Made by a program: the position numbers and the translations under genes. From positions 1-32,295 of the forward strand of contig CAJOML010000006.1 of the NCBI GenBank assembly GCA_905235705.1: a stretch of 32,295 nt of DNA, read 5' to 3'. The DNA is from an uncultured Bacilli bacterium (GTDB lineage Bacteria; Bacillota_I; Bacilli_A; RFN20; CAG-826). The notes below the pieces were generated by a model. The model saw nothing but the letters and a program-made list of their open reading frames with translations. It did not search any database and had not been told where the DNA came from. Positions 5,492 to 14,600 of the stretch are shown here, piece by piece (the first letter of the stretch is position 1; every line of letters begins with the position of its first letter).

Positions 5492-5500
5492 TTGCCCGCT

Positions 5501-6754
5501 ATGGTCATCATCGATTCTGCTGATTTTTATGAAGTGCGAGTCATGGAAGAAGTCTCTTCCCGTGGCTTCGAATCGCTTAACGTCTGCTACTTGCCTATTA
5601 TCGGCATGGAAGCGGTGGCGGCCTTTTCTTTGCTTTATTACGATCCTACTAGACGCGATGCCTCCAAGCTTTGCAAAAGGGAAGATATGCTTCGCCGGAC
5701 GGGTTTGACTTCCGGCCAATTCCAACGTGCCATACAGGCCCTTGAGGCAGTTGGCTTGGTCCGTTCTTTTGTTAAAAAAGGAGAAGGGGCTTCTTATTAC
5801 GTTCATTGTATCTTCTCCCCTGTCGATATTTCTTCTTTCCTAAACGATCCCTTGCTTGGCGGAATGCTGGAAAAGACACTTGGGCATGAGAAACTAGAAC
5901 AAATCAAAATCGATCACCGTGTCGCTAGCCTCCCTACTGATATGGAAGAAGTAACCGAGAAGTTTTCCGATTTCTTTAACCCTTCCTTTAAGTCCGCGAT
6001 TCAAAATCATCCGGAAACCGTGGGCAAGGCTGGGGTGAATGTGCCGCTGACTTTTTCGTTAACGAAGTTTGAAGATGAAATCCGCCAACTAGGCGTTAAC
6101 CCGAATAGCCTTAGCGTCGCGGAAAAGGAAATCGCAGCGAAAATGGCTGAACTATATCGACTAGACGAGAGCTCGATGGCTTCTTTTGTCTTCGATGCTT
6201 TTGAACAAACGAAAGTGAAAGGCAATCGCCTCAATAGACGTAAGCTTTCCGAGTTATGCCAAGGCTCGTTACGTTTCGCTTATGCTAGGGCAACAGCCGA
6301 AAAGAGCAAAGTCTCAGGCAAAGGAGCGATGGCGGAAAAAATCCAGATGATGGATGAAATCAATCCCATCGAATTCCTCTCCGTGCTCCAAGGTGGGCAT
6401 CGCCCGCCCAAAGCCGACCTTCAACTTATCGAAACCCTTTCGGGACTCGGCTTAACCTATCCTTGTATTAATGTCTTGCTCGATTATGTCCTTCAAAAAA
6501 AGAACAATACCTTGCCTGCATCCTATTGCGAAAAGATTGCCGGGGCATTAGTCAGGGAAGGCTGCCAAACCGCTCGTGATGCGATGGATTATTTATATCG
6601 TGTCGATGCTGAAAATAAAGCGAGAAAACCTCGCAAAAATTATGCAAAACCCCCGCAGAACCTAGATAATAGGCCAATTGATACAGAACCTAAAGAAACG
6701 GTAACCGACGAAGAAATCGATTCCCTTTTGGACTCTTTAGATGAGGATGAATGA
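5501..6754 (+). CDS. dnaB: Replication initiation and membrane attachment protein DnaB (Firmicutes type)
   Basis: This is the Firmicutes primosome protein DnaB (not the helicase), which with DnaD and DnaI loads the replicative helicase at oriC and restart sites. The N-terminal ~120 residues form a DnaD/DnaB-type winged-helix region (REDMLRRTGLTSGQFQRAIQALEAVGLV). The C-terminal part contains a DnaD-like helical domain (QLIETLSGLGLTYPCINVLLDYVL...LYRVDAE) and ends in an acidic tail (DSLLDSLDEDE). I use the ATG at 5501 (417 residues) rather than the track's TTG at 5492, because the ATG gives MVIIDSADFYE and follows the -10 at leaderless spacing. It overlaps dnaI by four bases (ATGA). Confidence 0.88.
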   Translation: MVIIDSADFYEVRVMEEVSSRGFESLNVCYLPIIGMEAVAAFSLLYYDPTRRDASKLCKREDMLRRTGLTSGQFQRAIQALEAVGLVRSFVKKGEGASYYVHCIFSPVDISSFLNDPLLGGMLEKTLGHEKLEQIKIDHRVASLPTDMEEVTEKFSDFFNPSFKSAIQNHPETVGKAGVNVPLTFSLTKFEDEIRQLGVNPNSLSVAEKEIAAKMAELYRLDESSMASFVFDAFEQTKVKGNRLNRRKLSELCQGSLRFAYARATAEKSKVSGKGAMAEKIQMMDEINPIEFLSVLQGGHRPPKADLQLIETLSGLGLTYPCINVLLDYVLQKKNNTLPASYCEKIAGALVREGCQTARDAMDYLYRVDAENKARKPRKNYAKPPQNLDNRPIDTEPKETVTDEEIDSLLDSLDEDE

Positions 6755-7653
6755 TTATGGAAAAAATGAAAATCGTGAATCCTCTTAAGGGAGATAATTC
6801 GGTTAAAGCGTTGCAGGAAGACGCCTACGTTTGTCTTCGTAAAGACGAATTGGTTTATCCTCGTCTTGCTGAACTTTCCCTAACCCGTGCCGAAGCCAAA
6901 AGGGGAATGGCGGTTTTATTGGATTTCCAAGAAGATGTTCATATCTGTGCGTCTTGCCCTGGGTTAGAAAAATGCCCAAAGGCGACCCCCGGCTATAGGA
7001 TGAGCGTGGTCAAAGAAGAAGGGATGTTACGCCCTTGCTTTGATTCCTGCACCCATCTAGAAAAGGCGCTTGAAATCAGGAATCGCTTTGTCCTCGCCGA
7101 TTTCCCGTCTTCTTGGTATGGCGTGGATTTGAAAGATATCGAAAAAAGCGCCTCTACCCGTAACCCTCTTCTAAAAGAAATGGTTGCCATTGCCAAAAGG
7201 GAATCTTCCCGCTGGCTCTATGTAAGTGGCAAAAAGAAGATGGGCAAGTCTTTTATTTTGGTTTGCTATGCCCATCGCATCGGAAAAATCGAACCCGGGG
7301 TGGCTTATGCGAATTCAGGTAAGCTTTTCGCCAAATTAAGAGAACAATCTTTCAAAAACGGAGGCGAAAAGTTCAGACGGAATCTTGATTTGTTAAAGAA
7401 TGCCTCCTTGCTTGTCCTTGATGAATTTGGGTTAGGGAATGTTAGCCCCTACGATTTTGAAAATATTATCGAGCCTCTTTTAAGCTATCGCGCGGAGAAT
7501 GATTTATTGACTGCTTTCGGATCGACTTTGCCGCTTGAAGAGGTTGGAGAAAAATACGAAAAGCGTCTAGGTGATAAGGCCACCAAACTATTCCAACTGA
7601 TCAAAAAGAAAACGAAATCCTTCGATATCACCGGAGTTAAACTATATAACTGA
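6751..7653 (+). CDS. dnaI: Primosomal helicase loader DnaI
   Basis: DnaI is an AAA+ ATPase that loads the replicative helicase onto DNA. The N-terminal third carries a cysteine-rich zinc-binding region (CASCPGLEKCP...RPCFDSC) characteristic of DnaI. The C-terminal ATPase has a Walker A motif SGKKKMGKS and a Walker B motif LLVLDEFG. At about 300 residues it has the family length. Two starts are possible: the ATG at 6751 overlapping the dnaB stop, and the ATG at 6757 with better spacing from the AGGA at 6744; I keep the former. The stop codon TGA directly abuts the stop of the convergent mutM-coaE gene with no base between them. Confidence 0.92.
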   Translation: MIMEKMKIVNPLKGDNSVKALQEDAYVCLRKDELVYPRLAELSLTRAEAKRGMAVLLDFQEDVHICASCPGLEKCPKATPGYRMSVVKEEGMLRPCFDSCTHLEKALEIRNRFVLADFPSSWYGVDLKDIEKSASTRNPLLKEMVAIAKRESSRWLYVSGKKKMGKSFILVCYAHRIGKIEPGVAYANSGKLFAKLREQSFKNGGEKFRRNLDLLKNASLLVLDEFGLGNVSPYDFENIIEPLLSYRAENDLLTAFGSTLPLEEVGEKYEKRLGDKATKLFQLIKKKTKSFDITGVKLYN

Positions 7654-9054
7654 TTAAGGTAGTTTTAGTTTCCTTATTTGAAGTGATAAATCCTCAATAG
7701 AACCATCATTTTCAATGACACGGGTCGCTTTATTTTTGGTTTCTTCTAAGGGATAAGAGGAATTAATCCTAACGAGTTCCTCTTTCGCTTTCGGGTCATC
7801 GGAAAAACGTTCAAGGCGATTCTTGATTGGGGAATCAATCAAGATGATCTCGTCGCATAAAGAATCCATTTTGGCTTTGACGAGCAAGGGAACGTCAAGA
7901 CAAATCTTGCTCCCCTTTTCAAATGAGGAGATGAAAGATACCGCCCTCTTTTTTACTTGGGGATAAAGATAACGTTCCCATCTTTCTTTCTTCGCCGGGG
8001 AAGAGGCAAAGGCTTGCCGAACATAGGCAACATCGAATTTGCCATTTTTGATGGCCTTGGCTCCGATGATGGTTTTGGCTTTTGCTAAGACTAAAGGAGA
8101 GGAATACATCTTCTTCACTTCTTTGTCGGCATCAAAAACCTTATATCCTTTTTTCTTCAATAACGAGGATAAGGAGGACTTTCCAGAATGGATGGGACCA
8201 GTGACTCCAACGACGAAAGTTTTCTCCTTTTTTTGATGCACGTGCTGGCATTTTGGGCAAAAATAAGTGCCACGTCCAGCAACTTCTTCCCGCCTAATCG
8301 GAGTTTGGCAAAGAAGGCAGGGCTCTCCTTCTTTGCCATAGACTTTTAATTGAAGTTGCATCAGACCATCAATGCCATCAAGGGGATGATAACTACGGAT
8401 TGTTGAGCCTCCTTCATGGATCGAAGCAGTCAAGATTTCTTTGGCTGAAGATAAAATATCTTGGGCTTGTTTATAAGTGATTTTATTGGCCGGGGTAAAA
8501 GGCGAAATCTTGGTAGCGAAAAGGACCTCGCAATCATAAATGTTTCCAATCCCGGAAATGAGGTGCTGGTCGAGTAAAGCTTCTTTGATGGAGATGCTTT
8601 TCCTTTTCAAACCGTTCCAGAATTCCTTTGGATCGATATCAAAAGGTTCGGGTCCAATCTCGGCAAAAGGGGAATGGAGCTGGCTTTCGCTTGTCTTGCC
8701 TAAATGGAATCGACCGAATTTCCTTGTATCGTTATAACAAAGGGTTTGGCCATTATCTAAAGCGAAAAAAGCGAGGTCGTGCTTTGAAAAAGGCTCTCCT
8801 TCATTACGGAAGAAGTATTTTCCTTCCATCCGTAAATGGGAATATAAGCTATATCCATTATCAAAATCGAAACGGAGGCACTTCCCTTTTCTTTTTAAAG
8901 CGATGAAGGTAGCGCCAGCTAAGGCTTCTTGATAGATTTTCCCGCCGCCGACGAAAACGGGTTCGTGGATCCACCGGATAGACAAAACCTTTTTGCCAAG
9001 AAGAAGCGGTTCAAGGCTGCGTCTAACGGTTTCGACTTCAGGAAGTTCGGGCAT
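7654..9054 (-). CDS. mutM-coaE: Fusion of formamidopyrimidine-DNA glycosylase (MutM/Fpg) and dephospho-CoA kinase (CoaE)
   Basis: One continuous 466-residue ORF joins two enzymes. Residues 1-~272 are MutM, which removes oxidised purines such as 8-oxoguanine: it has PELPEVETV with catalytic Pro2 and Glu3, the helix-two-turn-helix SGIGNIYDCEVLF (~168-180), and a C4 zinc finger (Cys246, 249, 266, 269) ending AGRGTYFCPKCQ. After a short lysine-rich linker, residues ~280-466 are CoaE, the last step of coenzyme A synthesis: P-loop GVTGPIHSGKS (283-293), FDADKEV and LDVPLLV. The start is the second Met of the track, since MutM needs Met-Pro-Glu for its N-terminal proline. It begins two bases after the polA stop, with AAAGGA upstream. 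In Bacillus these are separate genes in the polA-mutM-coaE locus. Confidence 0.92.
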   Translation of the reverse strand: MPELPEVETVRRSLEPLLLGKKVLSIRWIHEPVFVGGGKIYQEALAGATFIALKRKGKCLRFDFDNGYSLYSHLRMEGKYFFRNEGEPFSKHDLAFFALDNGQTLCYNDTRKFGRFHLGKTSESQLHSPFAEIGPEPFDIDPKEFWNGLKRKSISIKEALLDQHLISGIGNIYDCEVLFATKISPFTPANKITYKQAQDILSSAKEILTASIHEGGSTIRSYHPLDGIDGLMQLQLKVYGKEGEPCLLCQTPIRREEVAGRGTYFCPKCQHVHQKKEKTFVVGVTGPIHSGKSSLSSLLKKKGYKVFDADKEVKKMYSSPLVLAKAKTIIGAKAIKNGKFDVAYVRQAFASSPAKKERWERYLYPQVKKRAVSFISSFEKGSKICLDVPLLVKAKMDSLCDEIILIDSPIKNRLERFSDDPKAKEELVRINSSYPLEETKNKATRVIENDGSIEDLSLQIRKLKLP

Positions 9055-9056
9055 AA

Positions 9057-11681
9057 TCAATCCTTTGCCTCATACCATGAAGAACCGGCATTCCCTTCCA
9101 CTTGTAATTTAACGGGAAGAGAGATGGCGTGTTCCATGATTTCTTTGATTTTGGGGGTGATTTCTTCAAGTTCGCTTTCATCGACGGCAAAGAGAAGTTC
9201 GTCGTGGATTTGAAGGACCATTTTGGTTTTATAGTGGCCCTGTTTAAGGAAAGCGTCGACTTTGAGCATCGCGATTTTGATTAAGTCAGCGGCCGAACCT
9301 TGGACAGGGGCATTTAAGGCGGCGCGTCTTGCTGCTTCACGCTTAGCATAGTTGGGGTCATTGATATCGCGAAGATAACGACGACGTCCAAACATCGTTT
9401 CCACGTATCCCTTGGATTCGACTTCACGAATGATGTTTCCTAAGAAGGCGTCGATTTCTGGATAGGCGGCGTAGAAAGAACGGATGATGTTGCTTGCCTC
9501 TGTCGGGGTGGTGTTGATTTGATCGGCTAAGCCAAAGGGAGTGGTGCCATAGATGATGGCGAAGTTCACGGCTTTGGCCCTTCTTCTTAAATCGTGGGGA
9601 ACTTCTTCGTTTAAAGGGAGATGGAATATTGCTCTGGCGGTCTCGCTATGAACATCGTGGCCATTATTGAAGACGTCGATATATGTTTTGCAATTTGACA
9701 TTGCGGCAAGGATGCGAAGTTCGATTTGCGAATAGTCTAAAGATAATATTTTTGTATGCGCGTCAGGATAAAAGAAGGCTTGGCGGATAAGACGGCTTTC
9801 TTCATCGCGTGTCGATATATTTTGTAGATTCGGATTAGAAGAAGATAAACGTCCCGTGCTCGTTTGAGCTTGGTTGAAACAAGTGTGGATTTTGCCATCG
9901 CTTTGGATGTGAGGGGTTAATCCATCGATATAGGTGCTAACGAGTTTGGCGTATTTACGGTATTCGAGGATTTTAGAGACGATAGGATGCTTATTAACAA
10001 GCGACTTCAAGACCTCAACCGAAGTTGACATCGATTTGGAAGAAGCAAGTTGAAGACGGTTGAACAAAAGCTCGCCGACTTGTTTCGGGGAGGATACATT
10101 AAAGGAATATCCAGCCATCTCGATGATTTCTTTTTCAAGCGAATCCCTTTTTTGGCGGTAACTAGCTCCGATTTCCTCAAGTTTATCCTTATCAAGTGGG
10201 AAGCCTTCGCTTTCCATATCGGCCAAAACAAAGCAAAGAGGGAACTCGATTTGGTTATATAAATCAAGGCAACGTTCTTGGGAGAGCATCTCTGACGCTT
10301 TCTTTTTAAGGGCAAGCGCGTAATAAGACATCTTCCCGGTCGCTTCGACTTCCCCTGTATCAAATAAAGATAAGCCGTTAGAAGAAGGGGAAACATCGAC
10401 CCCGAAATTAGAATAGACCATCCGCCTATCGCCGCTTAAGGAGGAGTCGATAAGATAAGAGGCTAGCAATAAATCAAAGACGATCCCTTTGATCTCAATG
10501 CCGATTTTCCTTAGTCCGACAATGATAAGCTTAGCGTCGAGAACGTCTTTAGAAATGCTAGGATTTTCAAGGATTTCTTTAGCTTTTGCGTCTTTTTTGA
10601 GGTTTTCAAAGGAAATGTAGAAACTATTTTTGTTATCGGAAATCGATAGGCCTAACATGTCCTCGCTTTGGATTGAATCGCCATCGAAATCTAGGGCGAT
10701 ACCGATTTCTTTCTCTAGCGAGATTCCTTCAAATGAAGAGACCTCGGTTGGTTCAGGTGCTTTATTCTCGCCACCTTCTTTTTTCAAAGAGGAAGGAAGG
10801 CGAGACATAAATTGGCGGAGCTCATATTTTTTGCAGAATTCGGAAATGGCTTCGAAGTCGTAGCCTTGGTAAAGCAATTCATCTAAGCCAAAAGGTAATT
10901 CGACATCTAGTTTGATATGGGCTAAGGAATAACTTTGGCGTCCGAGTTCTTCGTTAGCGACGATGTTTTCGCCGACTTTGCCTTTGATGCGCCCGTCTTT
11001 GGCGGCGGCGATGATCGATTCGAAGTCGCCATATTCGGAAATCAGCTTGACGGCCCCTTTTTCGCCAACCCCGGGGATACCGGGAAGGTTATCCGAACTA
11101 TCCCCACGTAGACCTTTATAATCGATAATCTGAAGGGGGCTAAAGCCAAATTGCTCAACCATCGAAGCGGGGGTGATGGGGTTAATGTCGCTTAGCCCTT
11201 TTTTAATGAGGTTAACGGTGATTTTTTCATCGACGAGTTGAAGATAATCTTTGTCGGAAGTATAGACGGTGACTTCATACCCTGCCTTTGATCCCATCTT
11301 GGCGATGGTACCGCAGATGTCATCGGCTTCGACCCCATGGCTTTCATAATGAACGATATTTAAGGCGTCGAGGAATTCTCTTGAGATAGGGAATTGGGGG
11401 ATGAGGTCAGGGGGTGCTGGTTTACGGTTAGCCTTATATGCGGCGAATTCTTCTTTGCGGAAGGTTTGGGAGTCGGTATCGAAGCCGATGAAAAGGGATT
11501 CCCCGCCTTTGAAGCCTTGCATGATTTTCGAAAGCATATTGGCAAAAGCGAAGATGGCATTCGTCGGGGTGCCGTCTTTGGTGCGCATAATGGAAGAAGC
11601 ATCGCCATAACTAGTGGCAAAATAGGCCCGGAAAAGAAGGCTATTCCCGTCGATGATAATTAGTTTTTTCGTGTTTTCCAT
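9057..11681 (-). CDS. polA: DNA polymerase I
   Basis: DNA polymerase I carries out repair synthesis and Okazaki fragment maturation. The start is MENTKKLIIIDGNSLLFRAYF (874 residues); the longer track start reads back into dnaE, and this ATG has AGGAGA 7 bases upstream. Residues ~1-290 are the 5'-nuclease (FIGFDTDSQTFR, VEADDICGTIA, LRGDSSDNLPGIPGVGEKGA). The middle domain is a degenerate 3'-5' exonuclease: the DxE site is replaced by ALDFDGDS, so proofreading is probably absent, as in Bacillus PolA. The polymerase domain has LSLDYSQIELRILA, RRRAKAVNFAIIYG and LQIHDELLF. It lies 10 bases after dnaE and 2 bases before mutM-coaE, so the three form a replication and repair operon. Confidence 0.96.
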   Translation of the reverse strand: MENTKKLIIIDGNSLLFRAYFATSYGDASSIMRTKDGTPTNAIFAFANMLSKIMQGFKGGESLFIGFDTDSQTFRKEEFAAYKANRKPAPPDLIPQFPISREFLDALNIVHYESHGVEADDICGTIAKMGSKAGYEVTVYTSDKDYLQLVDEKITVNLIKKGLSDINPITPASMVEQFGFSPLQIIDYKGLRGDSSDNLPGIPGVGEKGAVKLISEYGDFESIIAAAKDGRIKGKVGENIVANEELGRQSYSLAHIKLDVELPFGLDELLYQGYDFEAISEFCKKYELRQFMSRLPSSLKKEGGENKAPEPTEVSSFEGISLEKEIGIALDFDGDSIQSEDMLGLSISDNKNSFYISFENLKKDAKAKEILENPSISKDVLDAKLIIVGLRKIGIEIKGIVFDLLLASYLIDSSLSGDRRMVYSNFGVDVSPSSNGLSLFDTGEVEATGKMSYYALALKKKASEMLSQERCLDLYNQIEFPLCFVLADMESEGFPLDKDKLEEIGASYRQKRDSLEKEIIEMAGYSFNVSSPKQVGELLFNRLQLASSKSMSTSVEVLKSLVNKHPIVSKILEYRKYAKLVSTYIDGLTPHIQSDGKIHTCFNQAQTSTGRLSSSNPNLQNISTRDEESRLIRQAFFYPDAHTKILSLDYSQIELRILAAMSNCKTYIDVFNNGHDVHSETARAIFHLPLNEEVPHDLRRRAKAVNFAIIYGTTPFGLADQINTTPTEASNIIRSFYAAYPEIDAFLGNIIREVESKGYVETMFGRRRYLRDINDPNYAKREAARRAALNAPVQGSAADLIKIAMLKVDAFLKQGHYKTKMVLQIHDELLFAVDESELEEITPKIKEIMEHAISLPVKLQVEGNAGSSWYEAKD

Positions 11682-11691
11682 GGGTCTTCTC

Positions 11692-14600
11692 CTATAAGGC
11701 GGCAATATTAGAACCGACGATGCTTTCGCGGCCTTTGAAATAGTCTTTTTTGGCAAGCAAGGTAATCGCGTTACCTTCTTTTAGAAGGGGATAAGCTTTT
11801 GAATAATCCGAGGCGAACAAGGTTAATTCCAGTTCGGAGTCGTCATCATAAATCGTAAGGAAGGCCATCTTAGCCCCGCTTTTGGTGATGATGGTTTTCA
11901 CCGAGGACACGATGCCGCAGATATATAAGGGGTAACGTGAATTTAAGAAGGTGGTAATAGAGGCAAGCTTTTTGGCTTTGATTTCTTCTTTCCGGCTTTC
12001 TAAGGGTGAGCCTGACACCATCATGCCGAGAACTTCTTTTTCGGCAAGGAGATCGCCCATGCGGTTTTCTTCGATGGAGATAATCTCGGGCTTGGCAAAG
12101 CCTAAATCCAAAGCGATGGTCTCACCGTTTTCGCCAACGAAATTGGTCGCATAATCCAAAGCCGAAGAAGAGGCAAGACGTAAACTCCCGCGTCCTGGAT
12201 AAATGTTATCGAAGCATCCGGCATCGATTAATTTGGTGAGGCTAGATTGATTGAGCCCATGCTTTTTTGTGCGTAAGGCAAAATCAAAGATATCCCCATA
12301 AGGGCCATTTAGGCTACGTTCTTCGACGATTCCTTTGGCTAAAGCAAAGGGAAGGCCCTTGATGGCGGTGAAGGGGAAGATGATCGCGCCTTTTTTAGGA
12401 AGGAAGGCAATACTTGCTTCGTTGATGTAGGGAACTTCGAATTTAAGCCCGCTGCGTTTAATCTCGGAGACCATGGCCGGGAATTTATGGTCGTTAGTGG
12501 CGGTGCCGTCTAAGATAGCGCAATAGAATTCTTGCGGATAATAGCATTTAAGATAAGCCATCTGGCAAGTTAACATGCCATAGGCAAGGGCGTGGGATTT
12601 ATTAAAGCCGTAATTGGCGAATTTTTCGATCAAATCAAAGACCTCGGTGGCCTTATCTTTGGAGGTTCCATGATCGATGCAGCCTTGGATGAATTCTTCT
12701 TTTAGCGAAAGCAGCTTATCGGTGTTTTTCTTGCTGATGGCACGACGGAACAAATCGGCCTGCCCAAGGCTAAATCCGGCGAGTTTGCAGACAATTTGCA
12801 TGATTTGCTCTTGGTAAATGATGATGCCATAGGTCGAAGAAAGTATCTCTTCAAGGGCGGGATGAGGATAGGAAATGGCTTCTCTTCCTTGCTTCCTTCT
12901 TCCATAAGAGGGAATGTTTTCCATCGGTCCAGGGCGGAACAAAGCGATGATGGCGACGACATCTTCGAAAGTGGTGGGTTTGACCTCGGCAATCGCCCGG
13001 TTCATACCAGGGCTTTCCAACTGGAATAAACCCATCGTTTTGTTTTCACCGATCAATGAGATGGCCTTTGGGTCATCATAAGGAATCTCTTGATAATCCA
13101 AATGGATGCCACGGAGTTTCGCCACCAACTGGAGGCAACGTTCCACGATGCTGAGGTTGCGTAGACCGAGGATATCCATTTTCAGGAAGCCTTGCTCTTC
13201 AAGATAATTCATTTCAAAAGCCGCGACTGACCCATTGACGGGATCGCGGAATACGGGAATTGAGGAAGACAAAGGCGAATCGTTTAAAACGATGCCGGCG
13301 GCATGGAGCCCGCTTTGGCGGGGAAGCCCTTCGATTTTAGAAGCGAGGGAAACGATCTCTAAATAATAAGGGTCGCTATCGACGATTTGGCGGAAGGCGG
13401 GGTTGCTGACATAGTTCTTTCGCAAATCGTTGTTGCGTACCTCGATGTTTTTAGCCAAGACATCGATGTCATGAGGTGGATAATCAAAGACACGGCCGAT
13501 ATCACGTAAGGAAGCTTTCGCACCTAGGGTTTGCATGGTGATGATATGGCCAACGTGGTCAACGCCATATTTATCGATGAGATAAGTGACGACTTGGTCG
13601 CGTTTGGTGTCGGAAAAATCAACGTCGATATCCGGCATCGAAAGTCTCATTGGATTGAGGAAGCGCTCGAAAAGAAGATCGTATTTGATGGGATCGGGAC
13701 GGACGATATCAAGGGCATATGAAACCAGTGATCCAGCCCCTGAGCCTCTACCTGGGCCTACCATGACGCCATGGGTTTTGGCAAAGCCGACATAATCGGC
13801 GACAAGGAGGAAATAAGAGTCATATCCCATTTGGTGGATAACGCCTAATTCATATTCGAGACGGTTACGGTAAGTGTCATTAAAATCGGGATTCTTTTTG
13901 GCTAGCCCCTCATAAGCTTTTTTCCGAAGATAGGTTTCAGGCGTTTCTCCTTCAGGCACGGGGAAAGAAAGAAGGCCGCCCCTTTTCTTGAGGAATTCGA
14001 AAGAAGAAGTGGAAGAGATTAAGGCCTCGCATTCATGGAGTTCTTCCCTAAGGTAGAATCCATTGATTTCTTCTTCGCTAGGCCAATAGGAATATCCGTT
14101 GGCTTTTTTCTCCGTGAGTTTTGAATCTTCAGCGATTGCCCTAACGATGCGAAGGGTAATCTCATCTTCCATTTTTTCATAACGGACAAAGGGGAAGGCG
14201 ATGAGGGGGTAAGGATATTTATTTGCGAATTCACGAATGGCTTTCACTAAAGGCGAATAAGGCTGACCAAAAGGAAGGCCGATCCTAAAATCGGGGAGGC
14301 GTTTGGAGAATTTAGCAAGTTCAGCGGCGATTTGTCCTTCTTGCAAAGGCAAAGTAAATAAGGGGCTTTGGTCAGGATGATAGACGAAGCATAAACCCTC
14401 TTTATCGAAAATATTCTCCCACGTCAATTTCCCTTCGGAATCAAGGGCAACGATTTGAAGGAGGTTCTTATAGCCTTCTTCGGATTTGACGAAAAGAGAA
14501 AACCCGTGATTCTCGATTTCGCTATCATAGCCAAAGACCGGATGCATGCCCTCTTGCATGCAAAAGTGATATAGGGTGGGATAGCCCGAAATGGATTTAT

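Follow-up and report, generated by a model that had tools for sequence, protein, structure and literature searches.

The window (the whole 32,295-nucleotide stretch of DNA that was analyzed, from an uncultured Bacilli bacterium) carries at 7654–9054 a single uninterrupted open frame that encodes an Fpg/MutM DNA glycosylase followed by a CoaE dephospho-CoA kinase, and that closes with a TAA at 7654-7656. The fused gene, its parts, and its neighbors are as follows:

7654..9054, minus strand: fused mutM::coaE gene, 466 codons plus TAA, with its ATG at 9054
8707..9054, minus strand: Fpg N-terminal catalytic domain, Met followed by Pro1-Glu2 (Pfam PF01149 and conserved catalytic residues)
8392..8658, minus strand: Fpg H2TH domain (Pfam PF06831)
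8239..8328, minus strand: Fpg C4 zinc finger, C..C...C..CQ (Pfam PF06827; all four Cys kept, 38/38 in the family)
8215..8238, minus strand: linker HQKKEKTF, partly with pLDDT below 50 (residues 272-275)
7690..8214, minus strand: CoaE (dephospho-CoA kinase) domain (Pfam PF01121; matches PDB dephospho-CoA kinases)
8176..8199, minus strand: CoaE P-loop, GPIHSGKS
9057..11756, minus strand: polA, upstream of the fusion, presumed operon
6751..7653, plus strand: dnaI-like ATPase gene, convergent (named by its position and its counterpart in locus L032; no Pfam hit)
5492..6754, plus strand: dnaB-type replication initiation gene, convergent (Pfam DnaB_2)

All four Pfam domains scored above their cut-offs in this one frame (Fapy_DNA_glyco 3e-29, H2TH 2e-23, zf-FPG_IleRS 3e-9, and CoaE 2e-23), and the fusion protein also passed the NCBIfam profiles TIGR00577 fpg and TIGR00152 CoaE, the CoaE scores being 83.6 bits for PF01121 (cut-off 27) and 80.5 for TIGR00152 (cut-off 65.55). 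The first part shows the Pro-Glu after Met, the N-terminal domain, the H2TH domain, and the C4 zinc finger that mark a protein as Fpg/MutM, and the second shows the marks of CoaE, i.e., the P-loop GxxxxGKS/T (here GPIHSGKS), a DXD motif (DAD), and a score above the curated profile cut-off. That one ORF holds both enzymes, as a preliminary description of this DNA had proposed, was confirmed by the presence of these four domains in a single frame; no stop or frameshift interrupts it near 8210-8240, where that description had advised checking. A profile search returned no second CoaE or H2TH match elsewhere in the draft genome (a metagenome assembly of 1.26 Mb, 76.6% complete), so the separate CoaE or Fpg copy that the description had named as evidence against a fusion was not found there. 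The MutM–CoaE fusion is real.

The polA TGA (9057-9059) stops two bases ahead of the fusion ATG. On the other side, the dnaI-like gene and the fusion gene converge back to back with zero intergenic bases (window 7651-7656). The named relative RUG14006 (L032) shares this neighborhood of polA, fusion, and convergent dnaI/dnaB; in its locus (L032 4000-5416), Fpg is interrupted by an in-frame TAA adjoining a ~30-base tandem duplication, which is possibly an assembly error, and L010 has such a stop too.

In Fpg chemistry, the free N-terminal Pro, exposed after Met removal, acts as the nucleophile, and CoaE could therefore be attached only at the C-terminus. Pro1, Glu2, Glu5, Lys57, Asn170, Arg260, and the four Cys vary little or not at all in the family, and the best fold matches of the Fpg part are MutM/Fpg crystal structures; the Fpg residues are intact. 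The preliminary description had called both domains complete, which holds for the Fpg part (Pro, Glu, and C4 finger) and needs qualification for the CoaE part, where the P-loop is there but conserved lid residues are missing (see below).

From the last Cys-Gln of the finger to the first CoaE strand, the linker spans only ~9 residues, and its length varies from 2 to 11 aa among loci. An AAGGAG at 8224-8229 lies within it with no suitably spaced start codon, and the sole start-like codon nearby, the GTG at 8239-8241, closes the zinc finger. Between finger and P-loop, an in-frame ATG survives in just 4 of 77 fused loci, and thus CoaE appears, from these sequences, to be obligately fused; any ATG, GTG, or TTG is found there in 22/77, many of these being codons for Val or Leu within the CoaE strand. 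Production of a separate CoaE from an internal start was rejected, as the window linker has no usable start and in-frame ATGs are rare in the other fused loci. The AlphaFold2 model (16-row alignment) has a mean pLDDT of 88.8 and a pTM of 0.61, with only residues 272–275, in the linker, below 50. This suggests that the relative orientation of the domains is undefined, and in the model they resemble separate folding units joined by a short flexible tether; the tight packing that had been expected from the short linker is not supported. No PDB chain among the matches listed spans both domains.

Having established the fusion in the window, we then considered its distribution. Across the 196 genomes surveyed in the order, CoaE was detected in 184 and H2TH in 182, and both were absent in ten, a pattern that fits a single gene or two adjacent ones. 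Frames of ~460-490 aa surround CoaE, and likewise H2TH, in almost every listed genome of families f1 (the family of the window), f2, f3, and f5, and the fused loci were confirmed by domain-by-domain inspection. Mapping the extent of the fusion, as had been proposed, thus found it to be common to most of the order, whose members have small genomes; the statement that the two genes are normally separate is correct for most of the class but not for this order, where most are fused. No stop between the domains, which would have spoken against the fusion if seen in close relatives, was observed within the family. The sole f1 locus scored as separate (L098) belongs to a same-genus MAG of 140 contigs (G161), in which the P-loop is gone and the reading frame changed owing to a deletion at the junction; this deletion may be an assembly error. 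Four f4 loci (L105-L108) have Fpg without an adjoining CoaE, and two of these genomes (G003 and G017) yielded neither CoaE nor CoaD hits.

Elsewhere in the class, the junctions of separate mutM and coaE are very tight, with many coaE starts ≤15 bases from the mutM stop or overlapping it. For example, the coaE ATG of L128 overlaps the last finger Cys codon in a different frame, and L131–L133 overlap similarly. In family f8, which belongs to the same order, one in-frame TAA parts the domains in three of four loci, with the coaE ATG following 3–6 bases later, and in the fourth mutM and coaE overlap in another frame. Alignments crossing a single in-frame stop were also obtained in f13, f18, f21, f23, and f27, and continuous fusions occur outside this order in f12, f16, f19, f25, f26, f27, and f28. 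On a gene tree of both domains for the class, the fused/separate label changes at least 13 times (one change being the G161 deletion), although this is a quick tree of 104 rows with 28 open forks on which gain and loss are not distinguishable. Repeated change of state is nonetheless hard to avoid, because fused and separate states are mixed within f16, f19, f25, f27, and f28. By these comparisons, the fusion apparently arose repeatedly from a gene pair that already lay end to end. A stop codon lost between neighboring genes, one of two origins that the preliminary description had offered, is supported by both this recurrence and the single in-frame TAA at exactly this place in f8, and the fusion most likely reflects such a loss rather than a newly made repair–metabolism connection. 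The locus is a clean case of a recurrently fusing gene pair: overlapping, single-stop, and fused states all occur within a single class, which makes the route from operon to fusion directly readable.

The CoaE half gives a mixed picture. By sequence, its best match to a solved dephospho-CoA kinase reaches 7e-18, and 38/38 members of f1 keep both the P-loop GK and the second DXD Asp. The lid, however, is shortened and diverged in f1: its Gln is present in 40/42 separate CoaEs vs 0/38 in f1, the lid-region Lys in 41/42 vs 0/38, the lid Arg in 41/42 vs 20/38, and the Glu of PLLFE in 42/42 vs 17/38. By alignment, the window CoaE has Ser in place of the lid Gln, Asp in place of the lid Arg, and Lys in place of the PLLFE Glu; the window retains the Arg of the R..Q motif, which most of the family lacks. 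The lid Gln corresponds by motif position to Mtb Gln144, which together with Arg140 is said to stabilize the dephospho-CoA phosphates in a modeled complex (PMC2765170). With the Gln144 counterpart, the lid Arg, and the PLLFE Glu all missing from the window, residue conservation leaves the kinase activity in some doubt. Decay of the lid as a consequence of fusion was ruled out: the fused lineages f12, f16, f28, f19, and f27 keep the lid residues and the lid Gln is missing from f6, whose CoaE is separate; the change therefore goes with the order rather than with the fusion.

CoaD was detected in 188/196 genomes of the order, against 2/196 for CoaBC; in the genus, DFP was found in 0/26. With CoaD present and CoaBC absent, the CoaE step is probably still needed, and the pattern suggests that an imported or salvaged CoA precursor is used, as has been discussed for mycoplasmas (PMC8721197). 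PanK III was found in 24/26 genomes of the genus, yet the genus has no CoaBC or DFP.

We think it likely that the locus is a polA–mutM::coaE operon whose fused gene specifies a pair of tethered enzymes, produced by the recurrent fusion of a tight gene pair through stop loss. In Bacilli, mutM and coaE are usually found end to end, often overlapping; in the window, loss of the mutM stop and decay of the coaE start would have led to one message (polA-mutM::coaE) and one protein, or the same end could have been reached by a frame change between translationally coupled neighbors. CoaE, on its short flexible linker, would phosphorylate dephospho-CoA independently. Co-transcription with polA, both activities, the independence of the domains, and fusion mainly as a by-product of gene coupling are what we infer here. 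Alternatively, the fusion may have been selected for a functional link, in which the Fpg and CoaE activities influence each other (e.g., repair tuned by CoA or ATP status, or CoaE by DNA binding); the fusion does recur in many lineages and is retained across an order, and repeated fusion could equally mean selection for stoichiometry or for such a link. We regard this as improbable, since mutation alone predicts recurrence in two genes that are coupled neighbors to begin with, the linker is variable in length and the domain orientation undefined, and the open-access literature searched held no biochemical hint of it. The other origin offered in the preliminary description, a link between repair of oxidized DNA and CoA synthesis, found no positive evidence. 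Still more doubtful is a version in which the domains are interdependent, the diverged lid being partly replaced by Fpg or DNA contacts, with DNA binding and CoA synthesis regulating each other.

The lid changes also bear on whether the CoaE of this family is still a true dephospho-CoA kinase or a weak or re-purposed P-loop domain. Complete loss of the lid Gln and lid-region Lys, partial loss of the lid Arg and PLLFE Glu, and, relative to Fpg, the faster divergence of CoaE in f1 (ratio 1.66 vs 1.38) would fit the latter, which we nevertheless consider unlikely: the P-loop GK and second DXD Asp are invariant, the TIGR00152 cut-off is still exceeded, CoaD is present with no other CoaE found, and the separate f6 CoaE shares the lid change, which is thus not fusion-driven decay. 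That a stop codon was removed by an assembly or sequencing artifact is barely credible. The source is a draft metagenome assembly and odd in-frame stops interrupt the Fpg part of two relatives, but dozens of other assemblies share the fusion, single-contig and few-contig ones included, and the coaE start codons have decayed; assembly error as the source of the fusion was ruled out by its conservation across the order.

No paper describing a MutM–CoaE fusion as such was found in the open-access literature searched, and the fused architecture may well already be in protein databases. The closest precedents are the adjacent or overlapping mutM-coaE gene pair of Bacilli and the 'DNA glycosylase / Dephospho-CoA kinase' frame-transition cluster of GeneTack, for which experiments suggest that programmed frameshifting and translational coupling may both occur (PMC3711429). 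As here, the two activities are encoded side by side in both, and frameshifting would yield a two-domain protein; in contrast to that cluster, in which two frames are joined by frameshift or coupling, the window has a single continuous frame, a decayed coaE start, and a seemingly obligate fusion. In four phytoplasma genomes, CoaE is annotated as formamidopyrimidine-DNA glycosylase (PMC3322544), which would imply one gene with both functions and the same fusion; the paper does not state a fusion. As a caution for annotation pipelines, CoaE may hide behind the Fpg name in the genomes studied here, as apparently in phytoplasmas, and a hidden CoaE would make CoA pathways look incomplete. The mycoplasma HAD-DPCK (PMC8721197) is similar to the window in carrying a C-terminal CoaE on an unrelated enzyme in reduced genomes, with an N-terminal part of ~260 aa, but its partner is a HAD phosphatase and not Fpg. 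The mycobacterial CoaE-UPF0157 (PMC2765170) is likewise a CoaE with an extra domain; this one sits at the C-terminus and is no DNA glycosylase.
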